In this document: piece by piece, positions 7,290 through 61,434 of the stretch
How the letters are laid out: each line of letters begins with the position of its first letter
Position numbering within the stretch: position 1 is the stretch's first letter
Origin: Sulfuricurvum sp.
Lineage (GTDB): Bacteria; Campylobacterota; Campylobacteria; Campylobacterales; Sulfurimonadaceae
Assembly (NCBI RefSeq): GCF_028710345.1
Contig: NZ_JAQTUH010000002.1
Span: 248,001-312,000 of the forward strand
Length of the DNA: 64,000 nt
Direction of reading: 5' to 3'
Made by a program: the position numbers and the translations under genes
The notes under the pieces: generated by a model
Database searches by the model: none
The model's input: only the letters and a program-made list of their open reading frames with translations
Told to the model about the DNA's origin: nothing

Positions 7290-8563
7290 TGCGTGCCAAG
7301 GTAACTGCCAGTGAATCTTTTGCATTAGTTACGGATGCTATTGCACCGGATAAGTCGATTTCGCACCGTTGTGCAATGTTCGCTGTTTTAGCAGAGGGGG
7401 AGAGCCGTATTGAAAATTTTCTTCGAGCGGAAGATACCCTTAACACGCTAAAGATTGTCGGTCATTTAGGGGCGAAAATCACTGATGACGGCTCTGTTAT
7501 CACTATCCAATCCAACGGGATTCAAGAGAGCCCTGAGATTCTCGATTGTGGCAATTCTGGGACAGGGATGCGCCTTTTTTGTGGGCTTCTTAGCTCTGCA
7601 AATGGTCATTTTATCCTTAGTGGAGATGAGTACCTCAAACGTCGTCCGATGAAGCGGGTAACCCAGCCGTTACGTTCTATCGGAGCACAGCTCGATGGAC
7701 GCAATAACGGTGATCTCGCCCCTCTCTCCATTCGCGGTGCGTCACTCAAAGCATTTGATTATACCTCCCCTATCGCGTCGGCACAGGTGAAAAGTGCGAT
7801 GATGTTAGCAGCACTCCGCTCTGATGGTATTTGTACGTTTCGTGAACCGGAATTGAGCCGTGATCATACGGAACGGATGCTTCGCGGAATGGGTGCTCGT
7901 GTAGAAGTAAACGGTTTAGAGACTAAGATTTGGCCTTTAGAAAAGCCCCTTCAACCATTAAAAATTCGTGTCCCTGCTGATCCCTCCAGTGCCTTTTTCT
8001 TTGCCGTTGCCGCAGCGATTACCCCTAATTCGAGTGTGGTGATTGAGGGAGTTACCCTCAATCCCACCCGTATCGAAGCATTTAAAGTTTTGGAGAAAAT
8101 GGGTGCGGATATTACCTATACTTTGAATGATGAGACCTATGAGCCTGTTGGAACAATCAGCGTGAAATACGCGCCACTCAAAGCGGTTGTGGTGGAAGAA
8201 AATATCTCATGGTTGATTGATGAACTTCCCGCACTCTCTATCGCTATGGCGTGTGCCGAGGGGAAAAGTATCATCAAAAACGCTGAGGAGTTGCGGGTCA
8301 AAGAATCAGACCGTATCAAAACGGTGGTGGATAATCTCAACCTTTGCGGTATTGAAACAGAAGAGTATAGCGATGGATATGCAGTTGTCGGTGGAACCTT
8401 ACAATCTGCCGTTGTGAACAGTTATGGGGATCACCGTATTGCGATGAGTTTTTTGATTGCCGGATTACGTTGCGGTATGGAAGTGGAAGATATTGAGTGT
8501 ATTAATACCTCTTTCCCAAACTTTTTTGAACTCTTAGGAGAATGTACTAAGGTTGAAAAATGA
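7286..8563 (+). CDS. aroA: 3-phosphoshikimate 1-carboxyvinyltransferase (EPSP synthase)
   Basis: About 425 residues. It joins shikimate-3-phosphate and phosphoenolpyruvate in the shikimate pathway. Visible motifs: [10 protein letters not shown] near the N-terminus, [12 protein letters not shown] (the LFLGNAG-type block) and RVKESDRI near the C-terminus. I place the start at ATG 7286, overlapping the pheT stop by 4 bp with AGGGG ten bases upstream; ATG 7289 is the alternative. The upstream extension to 7241 would overlap pheT heavily and is not conserved-looking. Placement beside pheST links aromatic synthesis and Phe charging. Confidence 0.96.
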
Positions 8564-54365: not shown

Positions 54366-54774
54366 GAATTTACTCCGAAAAGACTATTTTTTTTGGAATT
54401 ATACCATGAGAAAAAGAGTGTTAGCTTAATTGAGTCAAAGAGCATCAAGTTTTGATAAAAGAAGCAGAGAAATTTCGATAATCAAGAAGATAATTTTATG
54501 TAAAGAGATTTAAAATCGTAAATTATGGTAGTGTAGTACTAGAATTTATGGGAGTATAGGGTAGGAAATTAATTTTATCAATAGGCTATTTATTACAAGA
54601 TCAAAAAATTATTTGATGTATCAATGCAATTTTATTGTATGAGTTTTGAGATTATTAGAGTACTCATAAAATGAAATTTTTAGTCTCATTGGCGTAGAAT
54701 ATACAACACTAAACATTTACGTGTTAATAAAGAAATAAAATGAAATACCGAATAATTAATTAAAGAGAAGCGAT
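54366..54774. other. AT-rich intergenic region upstream of the RhuM-like gene
   Basis: About 400 bp separating the divergent dnaJ and RhuM-like genes. Apart from the dnaJ -10 and an AAAGAGAAG ribosome binding site just before 54775, I see no gene or repeat in it. Confidence 0.6.
54398..54403 (-). promoter_or_regulatory. Likely -10 box of dnaJ
   Basis: TATAAT on the minus strand, 33 bp upstream of the dnaJ GTG start. No CIRCE- or HAIR-type heat-shock operator is evident nearby. Confidence 0.4.
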
Positions 54775-55776
54775 ATGGAAGAAGAAAGTAATATTATCAT
54801 CTACAATACCGCTGACGGCAAAGCTTCTGTTTCGCTCCTTACTAAAGATGGAACGGCATGGCTAAATCAAAATCAACTTGCCGAACTTTTTGTAACCTCT
54901 AAACAAAATATTAGTCTGCATATCATTAATATATTTGAAGAGGGAGAACTCGACGCGAATTCAGTTGTCAAGGATTACTTGACAACTGCCGCTGATGGCA
55001 AAAATTACTCCGTTTCTCATTATTCCCTTGAAATGATTTTGGCTATCGGATTTCGGGTGCGAAGTAAACGGGGAACACAGTTTCGACAATGGGCAGGTAA
55101 AAATCTAAGCGAGTATATGATTAAGGGCTTCGTGATGGATGATGAACGGCTCAAAAATCCTGACGGAAAACCAGACTATTTCGATGAACTTTTGGCACGT
55201 ATCCGAGATATACGAGCTTCCGAAAAACGGTTCTATCAAAAAGTTAGAGACCTTTTTATGATTAGCCGTGATTATGATGCCAGCGACAAAGCAACTCAAC
55301 TGTTTTACGCTGATGCTCAAAATAAACTCTTATTTGCCATTACGGGGCAAACTGCTGCCGAAATTATTGTCAATCGTGCGAATGCATCAGAAGCGAATAT
55401 GGCACTTACCAGTTTCAAAGGTTCCATAGTCCGTAAGCAAGACATTTATACCGCAAAAAATTATCTCACAGAGGATGAAATCGATAGTTTGAACCGTTTT
55501 GTAGTGGTCTTTCTCGAAACCGCAGAACTCCGAGCAAAAAACCGTCAAGATGTGACAATGGATTTTTGGCGGGAAAATATCGACCGTATTATCGAATTTA
55601 ATGACAAAGAAGTGCTCCAAGGGTATGGAAGTATCGGACATGAACAGATGAAAAAAATGGTTGAAAAAGTCTATGAGACCTTCAATGCAAAACGCAAAGC
55701 TATTGAGGCTATTGAAGCTGATGAACAAGACCTTGCCGAATTGAAACAGATTGAAGAGAAAGTAAAATCGCGATGA
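54775..55776 (+). CDS. RhuM-family protein
   Basis: 333 residues. N-terminal region (about 5-115) is the RhuM/virulence_RhuM domain: LNQNQLAELFVTSKQNIS, HYSLEMILAIGFRVRSKRGTQF and FRQWAGKNLSEYMIKGF; a helical and possibly Fic/DOC-like region follows, ending in a Glu-rich coiled coil. RhuM genes are scattered in genomic islands and phages; the name comes from a Salmonella pathogenicity island gene and the function is unknown. It stands alone, flanked by a long AT-rich spacer upstream, and probably arrived by transfer. Confidence 0.85.
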   Translation: MEEESNIIIYNTADGKASVSLLTKDGTAWLNQNQLAELFVTSKQNISLHIINIFEEGELDANSVVKDYLTTAADGKNYSVSHYSLEMILAIGFRVRSKRGTQFRQWAGKNLSEYMIKGFVMDDERLKNPDGKPDYFDELLARIRDIRASEKRFYQKVRDLFMISRDYDASDKATQLFYADAQNKLLFAITGQTAAEIIVNRANASEANMALTSFKGSIVRKQDIYTAKNYLTEDEIDSLNRFVVVFLETAELRAKNRQDVTMDFWRENIDRIIEFNDKEVLQGYGSIGHEQMKKMVEKVYETFNAKRKAIEAIEADEQDLAELKQIEEKVKSR

Positions 55777-55855
55777 GTATCCAATCCGAAACAATCCCCG
55801 AAGGAAACTTTCTCATATAAATTGTATCGTATAGATGGTTTGGAACATCCTTTGC

Positions 55856-55867: not shown

Positions 55868-56437
55868 ATGAAACGTTCCTTAGAGAAATTTAACACCCTT
55901 GTGGATGCATTGCAACAACTCCCCTCCATCGGTCAGAAATCGGCGACCCGTCTCGCGTACCATTTGGTAATGCACGATACGTTTGGTGCATTAAAACTCG
56001 CTCATGCTATCGAAAATGCGATTACCAGTCTCAAAAAATGCCGTTCATGCGGTGGGATTAGTGAGGATGAGATTTGCGAAATATGCAGTGATGAGCATCG
56101 TAATCATGAAATACTCTGTATTGTCGAGAATGCCAAAGAGATTTTGATGTTCGAGGAGAACGGACTTTTCGACGGTCGTTATTTTGTGCTTGGGTCTATC
56201 GAGGAGCTCGATATTGCCCATCTGCGCTCTATCGTCCAAAGCGGTATCAAAGAGGTGATTTTTGCTCTCACCCCCTCTATTTCGAACCAAGGGGTGATGC
56301 TTTACATCGAGGATAAATTACTCGATTGTGATGTTCGCTTTAGCCGTATCGCTCAGGGGGTTCCGACGGGGGTGAGTTTGGAAAATGTCGATATCCTCTC
56401 GCTTATAAAAGCGTTAGAAGATCGGGTGAGTATCTAA
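55868..56437 (+). CDS. recR: Recombination mediator RecR
   Basis: 189 residues from ATG 55868; the open frame reaches back to 55835, but the homologous part begins here (FNTLVDALQQLPSIGQKSATRLA). A C4 zinc finger has Cys58, Cys61, Cys70 and Cys73, followed by a Toprim domain (ILCIVENAKEILMFEENG, RYFVLG). RecR with RecO loads RecA on gapped DNA. Its stop overlaps the convergent GGDEF/EAL gene. A second, partial recR tail lies at 58598-58684. Confidence 0.95.
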   Translation: MKRSLEKFNTLVDALQQLPSIGQKSATRLAYHLVMHDTFGALKLAHAIENAITSLKKCRSCGGISEDEICEICSDEHRNHEILCIVENAKEILMFEENGLFDGRYFVLGSIEELDIAHLRSIVQSGIKEVIFALTPSISNQGVMLYIEDKLLDCDVRFSRIAQGVPTGVSLENVDILSLIKALEDRVSI

Positions 56438-58377
56438 AGATTATCGGGTTTTCCGATGTGAAAGCCTTGGGCATAATCGATACCGAGTTGTTTGCATTTT
56501 GTGTATACCGCTTCATTACAGACGTATTCAGCTACTGTTTTAACATGAATTTTTTTCGCAAAATCGATAATCGTTTCTACGACAATAGCATGTTTCTCTT
56601 CGGTATCGATATTTTTGATCAACGAACCGTCAATTTTGATGTAATCAATGTTGAGTTTTAAAATATTTTCGAAACTCGAATATCCTGTACCAAAATCATC
56701 AATAGCTATTTTGGCTCCCATGGATTTCACTTGTTCAATAAAATGGGATACGATATCAAAATTCTCAATTCCTTCTGATTCTAATATTTCAAAAACTACC
56801 CTTTTTGCCGTCTTTGTCTCTTGAATGGAGTGTAAAATGAAGTTAACGGTAGATGGATTGGTTATGTCACTAATGGAAAGATTGATAGAGAAACTCTCGG
56901 AGCGGTTGGCAAACGCTTCACAGGATTGTTTGACAACACTTCGGGTGATTTCGGGGTAATGTTTGGTTTTTTGAGAAAGTTTAAGAAATGTGTTGGGATA
57001 AACAATCTTATGATCTTTGGTTTTTAATCGAACTAAGCTTTCGTATTTCGTAATCTCATTGGTCTCAAATGAGGCGATAGGCTGATAGTGACAAATAACA
57101 TTTCCGGTTGCAACAGCATATTTAATCGTATTAGCCATTATGATATTATTTTCAAAATTTGTTTTTATTTGCTCATTTTCTTCGAAAAGAGATAGTGGTA
57201 TTTTTTTCTCTTTTGACTGATGCAGGGCAATATCTGCAGAGATTAAATTTGCATGATTTCCATAAGCTAAACCGATAGAGGGGCGAATACTGATGGTTTG
57301 TTCATTAATGCTAAACGATTCGTCTTCTATTTTTAAAATCAGTAATTCCAGATGTTTGACGATATCTTCTAAACTAAATGATTTGTCGTAAATAAGTGCA
57401 AATTCATCACCGCTTAGGCGATACGTTAGATGATATTCATTTATAAAATTGGCAAATTGAATTAATATTTCATCTCCTGCTTTAATACCAAAAAAATCAT
57501 TTATCTCTTTGAAATCATCAATATTGACGATGGCAATAGCGTTGATCAGTTGTGTTTGTAAATCTTCTTTGAGCTGATTGCGGTTTGGAAGATTGGTTAG
57601 AGAGTCATGATAAAATTGTTCTAACAACTCATTGGTTTTGTCACACACTTTTTCTTGGAGAAGGGAGTTAATCTCTTGTAGCTCTTTTGTAGCTTCATCA
57701 ATTTTTGTTTGAAGGATGGAGTTGTCTTTTTTAAACATTTTTAGAAGATAGAGAATCGGAGAAAGCGATAGTAAAATAAGAAGTGCACCGGTCACTTCTT
57801 TGAGAGCAGCATTAAAAGATAGTGAACGTATAAGGGACAAATCAACATCTACTCCGATAACATACACTTTTCCTTTGTATGTTGTGTAGGGAATATAAAT
57901 ACTTCTAAATTCTCCCCATGCATCTTCAGTGAAGTCTTCATAAACAACATGTTTGGTGGTCAATGCTCTAAAAATGTGTTGGTTAGGTTCATAGATATCA
58001 TAATATCGTGTGAGTTTCTTTCCTGTTTCAATCTCATCATCTGTGCCACTACTGGAGATAAAACGTAAATTTTTTTTCTGATCGAGTATCATCAGATAGA
58101 TGTATTTAACACCAGACGCTTTTGCAAATTTGGAGAGAGCAATGATATTGTTCATATCTTCTGTTGCAGAAATTGAGGTTAGTGCTTGAGCACGATCGAT
58201 GAAATCATCCCCAATAATTACCTGTGCTGCTATAGCAGTAGAGATAAGCTTTTCATCAATCGATTTTATAATGTTGTATTTTTGATTTTCGTAACTAAAA
58301 AACCCGTATCCGAAAATGACAAAAAAAGAAAAAACAATGGAGACGATGATTCTGTTTTTATGTAAAAATTGGAACAA
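56434..58377 (-). CDS. Membrane GGDEF-EAL protein with altered GGDEF motif
   Basis: 647 residues, start TTG 58377 with a strong GAGGAG ribosome binding site. Membrane segments at about 8-27 and 190-208 enclose a Cache-like periplasmic sensor. A GGDEF domain (about 245-390) has SGDEF in place of GGDEF. The EAL domain (about 405-645) has ESLVRLK in place of EALIRW and DDFGTGYSS intact, so phosphodiesterase action is plausible and cyclase action doubtful. A consensus promoter (58429-58457) drives it. It is inserted between recR and a recR remnant. Confidence 0.9.
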   Translation of the reverse strand: MFQFLHKNRIIVSIVFSFFVIFGYGFFSYENQKYNIIKSIDEKLISTAIAAQVIIGDDFIDRAQALTSISATEDMNNIIALSKFAKASGVKYIYLMILDQKKNLRFISSSGTDDEIETGKKLTRYYDIYEPNQHIFRALTTKHVVYEDFTEDAWGEFRSIYIPYTTYKGKVYVIGVDVDLSLIRSLSFNAALKEVTGALLILLSLSPILYLLKMFKKDNSILQTKIDEATKELQEINSLLQEKVCDKTNELLEQFYHDSLTNLPNRNQLKEDLQTQLINAIAIVNIDDFKEINDFFGIKAGDEILIQFANFINEYHLTYRLSGDEFALIYDKSFSLEDIVKHLELLILKIEDESFSINEQTISIRPSIGLAYGNHANLISADIALHQSKEKKIPLSLFEENEQIKTNFENNIIMANTIKYAVATGNVICHYQPIASFETNEITKYESLVRLKTKDHKIVYPNTFLKLSQKTKHYPEITRSVVKQSCEAFANRSESFSINLSISDITNPSTVNFILHSIQETKTAKRVVFEILESEGIENFDIVSHFIEQVKSMGAKIAIDDFGTGYSSFENILKLNIDYIKIDGSLIKNIDTEEKHAIVVETIIDFAKKIHVKTVAEYVCNEAVYTKCKQLGIDYAQGFHIGKPDNL

Positions 58378-58469: not shown

Positions 58470-58597
58470 TTATTTTTTCCACGGTAGCATAAAGCGTTGC
58501 TCTTCAACTCCATGTATGACAAAATAAAGTTCATAATAGTGGTTGACGATAGTGGTAAAGATTTCCAAACTGTGTTGTGTCGTAGCAAATAAAATAC
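58470..58597 (-). pseudogene. Orphan C-terminal coding fragment
   Basis: On the minus strand an open stretch of about 42 codons reads like protein (ATTQHSLEIFTTIVNHYYEL, then FVIHGVEEQRFMLPWKK) and ends with TAA at 58470-58472. No start codon with a ribosome binding site is present and it runs into the recR remnant. Likely the tail of a gene truncated in the same rearrangement. No family recognised. Confidence 0.35.
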
Positions 58598-58684
58598 ACT
58601 CAGGGGGTTCTGATGGGGGTGAGTTTGGAAAATGTGGATGTTCTATCGCTCATACGAGCGTTAGAAGATAGAGTAAGTATTTAG
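58598..58684 (+). pseudogene. recR: 3' remnant of a second recR gene
   Basis: 29 codons, in frame, decode as TQGVLMGVSLENVDVLSLIR then ALEDRVSI and a stop, matching the intact recR tail (AQGVPTGVSLENVDILSLIK...ALEDRVSI). Fifteen of 87 bases differ; most changed codons are synonymous or conservative (I/V, K/R). It lacks everything upstream and cannot be functional. Its stop overlaps the convergent DUF4015 gene by 4 bases, just as the intact recR overlaps the GGDEF-EAL gene. Confidence 0.85.
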
Positions 58685-59934
58685 GATGCAGGTTTTTCGA
58701 TAATTTTCTCAGCTGTTCGTTGCAGTTTTATGAGTCCCGCACCAGTATAAACGTTACGAGGATTCCATAAAATCCATCCACAGCTTCCGAAATCTTCACT
58801 TGCGCGGATTTGGTCACGAATCTCTTTATCTCCGTAGATACGGCGATCAAAAGCGTAGTCTTTAAACGCTTGGAGCCAAGGTCGATAACACAATGGCGAG
58901 TTTGCCGATTTTGTTAATGCTTTATCGAGCGAATTTTTGACAATCTCATAGTTTGCTTTTACAGGATTCGGATAACCTGGGATTCCTGCGTTAAATCCTG
59001 ATGGATAAAGCATCGGTGAGAGATAATCGACGAACGGAGCGAGGGCATCAACGCGTTGACCGATGTCGATGTCGGCATCATGCCAGCTGACGTAACCGAA
59101 AATATCGGCAGAGACAAAGACGTTATACGGTGTTAAGCGGGTACGCGCTGCTTCGAGGAATCCTGCGATTGCTTTTACACGGTTTGCTTGGGTGTTTTCA
59201 ACCGAAAATTTGATTCCTTTGCGATCAGGGAAACGGACGTAGTCAAATTGCACTTCATCAAATCCTGCGGTTGCGGCATCAGCGGCGATATCGATTATGT
59301 ATTTGTGTGCATCGGTACGGGAAGCATCAATCCAATAAAGTCCCTCTTTGTCTTTAAAGAGTGTTCCATCATCTTTTTTAACACCGTATTGAGGATATGC
59401 CGTAACAAATGGGGTGTCTTTAAAAGAGACGATACGCGCGATTACGTAAATCCCCTCTTTATGCAAGTCTGCAATAAAGCTTTTCATATCTTTGAATAAG
59501 ATGATTTGTTGCGCACCGATTTTGTTAGCGATAGGGTTGGCTGTTTTAAAAGCGATTTGACCGCGATCCATTTTAACGTCGATAACGAGGGCATTGATTT
59601 CGGTAGAGCGGATAAGATTTTTAGCATTTCCCATAATTTTTCCACTGGTTGCACCGAAGCTGGATAGGTAGAGCGCTTTTGGGATAAAACGGTTCAAATA
59701 CATTTTTCCGCCACTGGTATAAAATTTTCGTTCATACCCGACAGCGCGCACACCGATAAGTGATGCAGGTGGGACGCTAAAGCTTCCGTTGCTATCGGTG
59801 CGGTACTCTTTGTTTCCAGAGATAATTATGGCATCTTGGATAGGTTTAGAAGTGGCTTTGTCATAGACGGTGCCGGTAGTCATTGCACCCCAGCTTAAGC
59901 TTAGAGTGAGAGCCAATATTGCGAGTGCTTTCAA
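58681..59934 (-). CDS. Exported DUF4015 (glycoside-hydrolase-like) protein
   Basis: 417 residues. Signal peptide about 1-16, a short carboxypeptidase-regulatory-like beta domain (about 18-80, TGTVYDKATSKPIQDA, DSNGSFSVP), then a DUF4015 TIM-barrel (about 90-405): LVIDVKMDRGQI, EVQFDYVRFP, SADIFGYVS, LSPMLYPSGF and CGWILWNP. DUF4015 proteins are putative glycoside hydrolases with unknown substrate. The Asp/Glu positions in VQFDYVRFP and the barrel are compatible with catalysis. Convergent with the recR remnant. Confidence 0.9.
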   Translation of the reverse strand: MKALAILALTLSLSWGAMTTGTVYDKATSKPIQDAIIISGNKEYRTDSNGSFSVPPASLIGVRAVGYERKFYTSGGKMYLNRFIPKALYLSSFGATSGKIMGNAKNLIRSTEINALVIDVKMDRGQIAFKTANPIANKIGAQQIILFKDMKSFIADLHKEGIYVIARIVSFKDTPFVTAYPQYGVKKDDGTLFKDKEGLYWIDASRTDAHKYIIDIAADAATAGFDEVQFDYVRFPDRKGIKFSVENTQANRVKAIAGFLEAARTRLTPYNVFVSADIFGYVSWHDADIDIGQRVDALAPFVDYLSPMLYPSGFNAGIPGYPNPVKANYEIVKNSLDKALTKSANSPLCYRPWLQAFKDYAFDRRIYGDKEIRDQIRASEDFGSCGWILWNPRNVYTGAGLIKLQRTAEKIIEKPAS

Positions 59935-60054
59935 TAGGTTTTCCTTGTGGAGTTTCAGTTGCGCAATAGTAGCAAAAAAAATGCCAAAAATGGGAGGTCT
60001 GAAGCGATTAAATGCTATTATTAATCTATCAATACCAAAAAGGTAATTATAAAT

Positions 60055-61434
60055 ATGTCATTTACGACTTTAGGGCTTAGCCCGCACCTTCTCGACACCC
60101 TAAATGAGATCGGATATACCGAACCGACACCGATCCAAAAAGAGGTGATTCCGATTGTATTACGAGGACGCGATATTCTCGGAGCGGCACAAACGGGGAC
60201 AGGAAAAACGGCAGCGTTCGCCCTCCCGATACTCCATAAACTCATCAGTGCTAGTGATACAAAACAAAGCAGTGCCAGAGCATTGGTAATCGTCCCTACG
60301 AGAGAACTCGCCTCCCAAGTCGCCTCCGCGATTGAAACCTATGCGCAAGGGTTGGAGATTACAACAATTGCCCTCTATGGCGGAGCCAATATGGCACGTC
60401 AAGCCAAAGAGCTAGGGGAGGGGGTTGATATTATCGTTGCTACTCCGGGTCGTCTTATTGAGCTGAACAAACAAGGGCATATTCCGTTGTCTCGTATCGA
60501 GTTTTTGGTGTTTGATGAAGCCGATACCATTTTCGATATGGGCTTTATCCGCGAAGTGGGACAGATTATCGATCTTCTCCCCCTTAACCGTCAAAACATG
60601 CTTTTTTCAGCGACGATGACCCCTGCGGTGAAACAGTTGAGTGAAAAGATTCTTAAAAAACCGTTGTTAATCGAAATCGACAACCTCAAAGCTGCCGATA
60701 TGACACTGCGTCAAGTGGTTCATCCAGTCGAAAAAGAGCGTAAAAAAGAGCTGTTGTCGTTTCTCATCGGTTCCAACAACTATCCTCAAGTCCTCGTCTT
60801 TACCCGTACCAAAGTTGAAGCCGATGAGGTAAGTGCCGATTTAGCGGCAAGTGGACTTAAAAACGTCGTCATCCACGGCGATAAAAAACACGGAGCGCGT
60901 GATCGTGCCCTCAGTGAGTTTAGAGAAGGGTCCGCCCGTATCCTCGTCGCTACCGATATCGCCGCACGAGGACTAGATATCGAGGGGCTAGACGTCGTTA
61001 TCAATTACGATATCCCCCATATCAGTACCGATTATCTCCACCGTATCGGACGGACGGGTCGTGCAGGGAATGACGGACTCGCCATCACCCTTCTCTCCTC
61101 ACAAGAGCATATCTCGTGGTCAAAAATTATCGCGATGCTCGGTAAAAACGTTGAGACTATTTTAGTTCCCGGATTCGAACCGCCAGCTGATAACGCACTC
61201 GTTAAAACACGAGGAAAAAGCCTCTCTAAAGATGCAGAGAAAAAGGGTAAAACAGAAGGTGCGTTCGGAAACAAACGTAAAAAAGCTCCCGTTCAGTCAA
61301 AATTTGCCACTAAACGTGGTCCTCGCATTGCGCGTGACGAACTTCCAGCTAAAAGCGACTCTTCAGCCAGAAGCAGTGCCTTCGGCAATGCTAAAAAACC
61401 TTCTCCTAAAAAATCGGGTGGACGGGGGAGATAA
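60055..61434 (+). CDS. DEAD-box RNA helicase (RhlE-like), second copy
   Basis: 459 residues. Q motif ([11 protein letters not shown]), motif [21 protein letters not shown], motif [14 protein letters not shown], motif III FSATMT, and [10 protein letters not shown]. The C-terminal 75 residues are Lys/Arg/Ser/Pro-rich. Only partly similar in tail to the helicase at 45.4 kb, so the two are paralogues with probably distinct RNA targets. The next gene begins 11 bp later and codes for ribosome rescue factor ArfB, consistent with an RNA/ribosome operon. Confidence 0.95.

Follow-up and report, generated by a model that had tools for sequence, protein, structure and literature searches.

The locus of the DNA-repair gene recR in Sulfuricurvum sp. 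carries the remains of two truncated genes joined to each other. We read this arrangement, with a probability of about 0.55, as the scar of a one-sided integration, in which DNA from a close relative would have recombined homologously in or upstream of recR and been joined illegitimately at its other end. In the window (the whole stretch of 64,000 nucleotides that was analysed), the gene order at the locus is recR, GGDEF-EAL gene, TrkA-N stub, recR stub, and DUF4015 gene. The intact recR (55868..56437, + strand, 189 aa) has an ATG start as in relatives and shares 74-82% DNA identity with the recR genes found in 39 genomes of the genus. It is followed by a full-length inserted GGDEF-EAL signalling gene (56434..58377, - strand, 647 aa; Pfam EAL 5e-59, GGDEF 1e-19), the stop of which overlaps that of the intact recR. 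Beyond the two stubs lies the native neighbour, the DUF4015 gene (58681..59934, - strand; Pfam 2e-105), whose stop overlaps the TAG of the recR stub and whose C-terminus (..KPAS) is complete, as in relatives, according to a C-terminal alignment. The DUF6394 gene that is usual in the locus is absent here.

The recR 3' stub (58598..58684, + strand, 28 codons and a stop) translates to TQGVLMGVSLENVDVLSLIRALEDRVSI followed by the stop, and the tail of the intact recR (56351-56437) to AQGVPTGVSLENVDILSLIKALEDRVSI, also followed by its stop. These 87 bases are an in-frame recR C-terminus, as the initial annotation had claimed: 72/87 are the same as in the intact tail, in frame to the stop and far beyond chance. 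A genome search with the whole recR recovers the stub at E=2e-20, and in a repeat search no other repeat of the region comes near the length of that formed by the stub and the intact tail (85 nt, 85%). An assembly artefact, such as a collapsed or duplicated read end, was rejected because the stub differs too much from the intact copy (83-85% identity) and lies deep inside a 416-kb contig. The 15 base differences had been described as largely synonymous or conservative. Ten of them are indeed silent and five change an amino acid, but in three replacements (P to L, T to M, and A to T) the changed codon base is invariant in 38 other recR genes, so the stub is not a working recR end and is decaying. 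The further proposal was that divergence took place in a working gene and truncation came later. A simulation gives a weak hint of this and no proof: a copy dead from birth acquired at most five amino-acid changes in 3.5-6.6% of cases (P=0.035-0.066).

The 125 bases to the left of the recR stub, overlooked at first, come from the C-terminal end of another truncated gene. This segment (58470..58594, - strand) encodes the last ~40 residues and the stop of a TrkA-N (potassium-channel-like) protein. Its DNA is 79% identical over 122 bp to the intact gene of a relative (E=2e-22), and its peptide is matched in 24/41 Sulfuricurvum genomes, including this one, with at most 78% amino acid identity. In this genome, the peptide search returned only the stub and no intact gene. 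The TrkA-N homology ends at 58594 and the recR homology begins at 58598/58599, with ~4 bases at the joint (58595..58598, no strand) clearly of neither gene; the two genes are unrelated. In many relatives the TrkA-N gene and recR lie tail to tail, some with overlapping stops; the joint unites, in swapped order, the ends of two genes that normally face each other. Judged by its sequence, it shows no homology between the putative incoming and resident DNA, as would be expected of a product of homology-facilitated illegitimate recombination.

The GGDEF-EAL gene had rightly been taken to have inserted between recR and the genes that used to adjoin it, since it is absent from that place in all 38 relatives with a located recR that made up the synteny sample. 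Full-length homologues (648 aa) are found elsewhere, none adjoining recR, and the GC content of the gene is 0.338 against about 0.45. Both its place and its GC content mark it as non-native DNA that was carried in. The gene lies precisely between the stops of recR and TrkA-N, which would fit an insertion made while the TrkA-N gene was intact, that is, in a donor. On its right-hand side, recR is most often bordered in these relatives by the TrkA-N gene (13 genomes) or by an HrpB helicase gene (11 genomes within 90 bases). The order in which recR is directly followed by DUF4015 had been assumed to be ancestral. It occurs in only 3/38 relatives (G005, G008, and G051), most of the others having TrkA-N or HrpB after recR, and is apparently a minority, derived state. 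The TrkA-N and DUF6394 genes are commonly missing at the locus within the genus. In G007, about 95 kb of a single contig (C2, L091-L096) separate recR from the DUF4015 gene, which implies a large insertion or rearrangement between them.

The flanks of recR are insertion-prone on both sides. The gap between dnaJ and recR exceeds 1 kb in 7/37 genomes; its cargo includes RhuM, Phd/RelE, an AAA ATPase, a zeta-toxin-like protein, and an RdrA-like/adenosine-deaminase pair. Several genomes carry islands 3' of recR. In the window, this gap holds a RhuM-family cargo segment (54745..55803, + strand) that is 94% identical to that of G050, where it also lies 5' of recR, compared with 82% for recR itself. 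The downstream partner ORF of this segment is broken off here after a few codons; its G050 version resembles the C-terminus of a Phd-like antitoxin in the dnaJ-recR gap of G008.

Under one-sided integration, the resident order before the event would have been recR, DUF4015. A donor segment from a close relative, carrying recR, GGDEF-EAL, and TrkA-N in this order, would have entered the cell and paired with homologous sequence in recR or upstream of it, and the 3' part of the incoming recR (or all of it) would have replaced that of the resident. The far end, inside the incoming TrkA-N gene, would then have become attached, without any homology, to the final 87 bases of the resident recR. The outcome would have been a cell with the GGDEF-EAL gene, one working recR, and two dead stubs that have since decayed. 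A single incoming end accounts for the TrkA-N stub touching the recR stub. The initial annotation had suggested that an incoming segment with recR and the GGDEF-EAL gene replaced the resident recR. This model stands in spirit but needs change, since an incoming piece that ended inside the TrkA-N gene gives a joint of TrkA-N to recR and not of EAL to recR. One-sided integration is supported by the existence of the recR-DUF4015 state in the three genomes named above, by G046, which repeats the pattern, and by G008, which mirrors it. The donor order recR, EAL, TrkA-N was not found in any genome examined. We infer the direction of the transfer, its donor, and transformation as its route; comEC and dprA homologues are present, as both also are in control genomes not known for competence, for example, E. 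coli.

Several observations count against a transfer. In a maximum likelihood tree of recR and the stub, the stub and the intact recR of its own genome are sisters (support 95/93), with branch lengths of 0 on the intact side and 0.31 on the stub side. No recR of another genome matches the stub at more than 68/87 bases, and the stub and its own intact recR share an Ile codon, ATA, found in no other genome. The initial annotation had itself named nearness of the remnant to the recR of the same genome as contrary to its model, and this is what the best tree gives; a stub forced into the neighbouring clade was not rejected on these 87 bases (AU p=0.275). A tree of the recR tail alone gave no resolution. 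The intact recR is placed in its tree as dnaJ is in the dnaJ tree and therefore does not look imported from afar. It is also seamless, and a single-breakpoint test within it gave no significant crossover (p=0.30). On 87 bases, the counts of silent and replacement changes, the single-breakpoint test, and the tail tree are too weak to name a donor. Homologous recombination needs similar sequence, so a close donor is expected under a transfer; the donor had to be a close relative, and the nearness of the stub to its own recR does not alone exclude a transfer.

The same trees bear on the earlier version of the model, in which recR was replaced from a distant clade and the old native tail was left behind. 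At several silent sites, the stub has bases commoner in the G002/G005/G008 clade and the intact tail has bases commoner in the G021/G050 clade, and the neighbouring DEAD-box helicase gene (60055-61434) groups with G050 (99/97), both of which would suit a distant source. The DUF4015 gene adjoining the helicase gene groups elsewhere, and this disagreement between the two trees puts a recombination breakpoint probably near 59934-60055. However, the supported pairing of the stub with the intact recR, their unique Ile codon, and the dnaJ-like placement of the whole recR make a distant replacement very unlikely.

An internal duplication fits the trees as well as a transfer or better. In this case, a stretch beginning with the last 87 bases of recR and reaching ~40 codons into TrkA-N would have been copied in place as a tandem duplication, whether or not it included the EAL gene. 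A deletion up to the DUF4015 stop would later have removed the complete TrkA-N gene together with DUF6394 and any additional EAL copy. A TrkA-N end joined to a recR tail is exactly the new joint that such a copy would create, and a stub that is sister to its own recR, with a zero-length intact branch, is what would be expected. The TTAG common to the stops of the stub and DUF4015 could be a microhomology used in the deletion, and the absence of TrkA-N and DUF6394 is frequent in the genus. Yet the duplication needs two events after the EAL insertion, one step more than a transfer. If the duplication came first, the EAL gene must have inserted within a few bases of the recR stop despite ~220 bases of free junk. 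The rest of the second copy was not found, there being no second EAL or complete TrkA-N gene and DUF4015 coming at once after the stub, although a later deletion could explain this. The 10/15 silent differences are slightly above the expectation for a copy dead from birth (P=0.035-0.066), and the scars in G046 and G008 are harder to account for. We consider an internal duplication less likely than a transfer but a strong rival to it.

When recR loci were checked for partial recR copies, two further firm cases were found. In G046, recR is followed by a gene for a PtuA-like ATPase that breaks off after ~residue 385 and continues in frame into a 54-base recR tail; the chimeric ORF (L077:9828-11030) encodes a PtuA-like (Septu-type) ATPase ending in 17 recR codons. 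The homologue of this ATPase in the sister genome G007 has an open frame of 432 residues and extends beyond the G046 truncation point. After the recR tail, G046 has a spacer and a response-regulator/GGDEF gene that are 78% identical to those directly after recR in G007. G008 shows the mirror image, in which a 53-base recR 5' stub with its upstream sequence lies by dnaJ and is followed by a Phd/RelE toxin-antitoxin pair and the intact recR. Screening for dnaJ, ccs, and DUF6394 in this way turned up no stubs of this kind; one 5' piece of the HrpB gene is present in G021. The numbers are small and at most suggest a special status of recR. A literature search yielded no specific account of recR as a hotspot of integration.

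Fragments of recR were also seen in G023. A 72-base recR tail lies by a TrkA-N gene on contig C14 (L051:5834-5929), with the contig edge 24 non-recR bases beyond it. This is a possible fourth scar that was not counted because of the contig edge and because the bin holds two DUF4015 types. On contig C79 (L039, about 7579-7606), a 28-base recR-tail fragment (89%) lies ~0.8 kb 3' of the intact recR, after an inserted gene. In G055, contig ends sharing recR and TrkA-N sequence at 100% were judged to be an assembly overlap and no scar.

Repeated insertions at the same gene edges within the genus, with a complete recR restored each time, could also point to a site-specific or transposon insertion at the recR 3' end, the stub being the distal attachment site or a target duplication. 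However, no integrase or transposase was found between dnaJ and DUF4015 in the window, where only RhuM, recR, and GGDEF-EAL are present, and the repeat search detected no inverted repeats flanking the insert. The stubs vary in length (87 bases here, 54 in G046, and, from the opposite end of the gene, 53 in G008), and no constant core was seen. The joint lies inside another gene, and its partners differ among the three genomes. An insertion of this kind is extremely unlikely. Tentatively, we suggest that recR may be a recurrent anchor for one-sided gene capture in Sulfuricurvum, with cargo arriving on an incoming recR that recombines with the resident one. The stubs (3' here and in G046, 5' in G008, and possibly in G023) would each record a delivery.

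One-sided events of this type are already known; of interest here are the double stub and the repeated occurrence of scars at recR. Homology-facilitated illegitimate recombination is known in the transformable bacteria Streptococcus pneumoniae, Acinetobacter baylyi, and Pseudomonas stutzeri (PMC3240628). It shares with our model one homologous end, one illegitimate end, and foreign DNA between them, but here the event would be read from an old scar that does not show the homologous end and in which part of the anchor gene itself is present twice. In the T6SS clusters of Vibrio cholerae, displaced effector ends and orphan immunity genes occur, as do Rhs orphan 3' ends, and one-sided integration has been proposed for the displaced effector ends (PMC5361080). 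There too, a module anchored on one side shoves the 3' end of the old gene downstream as a stub. However, those stubs come from the competing cargo, whereas here a housekeeping gene was stubbed, one that has no relation to the cargo (GGDEF-EAL, PtuA-like ATPase, Phd/RelE). In S. pneumoniae, the tandem duplications driven by transformation (merodiploids) likewise duplicate part of the chromosomal genes and create a new joint (PMC3784515), but they are about 100-900 kb long and repeat-dependent, while the Sulfuricurvum case is less than 3 kb and without visible repeats.

Scars of one-sided integration in which both truncated partners can still be read are rarely caught. If our reading is true, a housekeeping gene stubbed repeatedly at either edge and yet intact would show an integrase-free entry of accessory genes into the chromosome, including defence-like genes and toxin-antitoxin pairs, and would supply joints for studying the process in environmental Campylobacterota.
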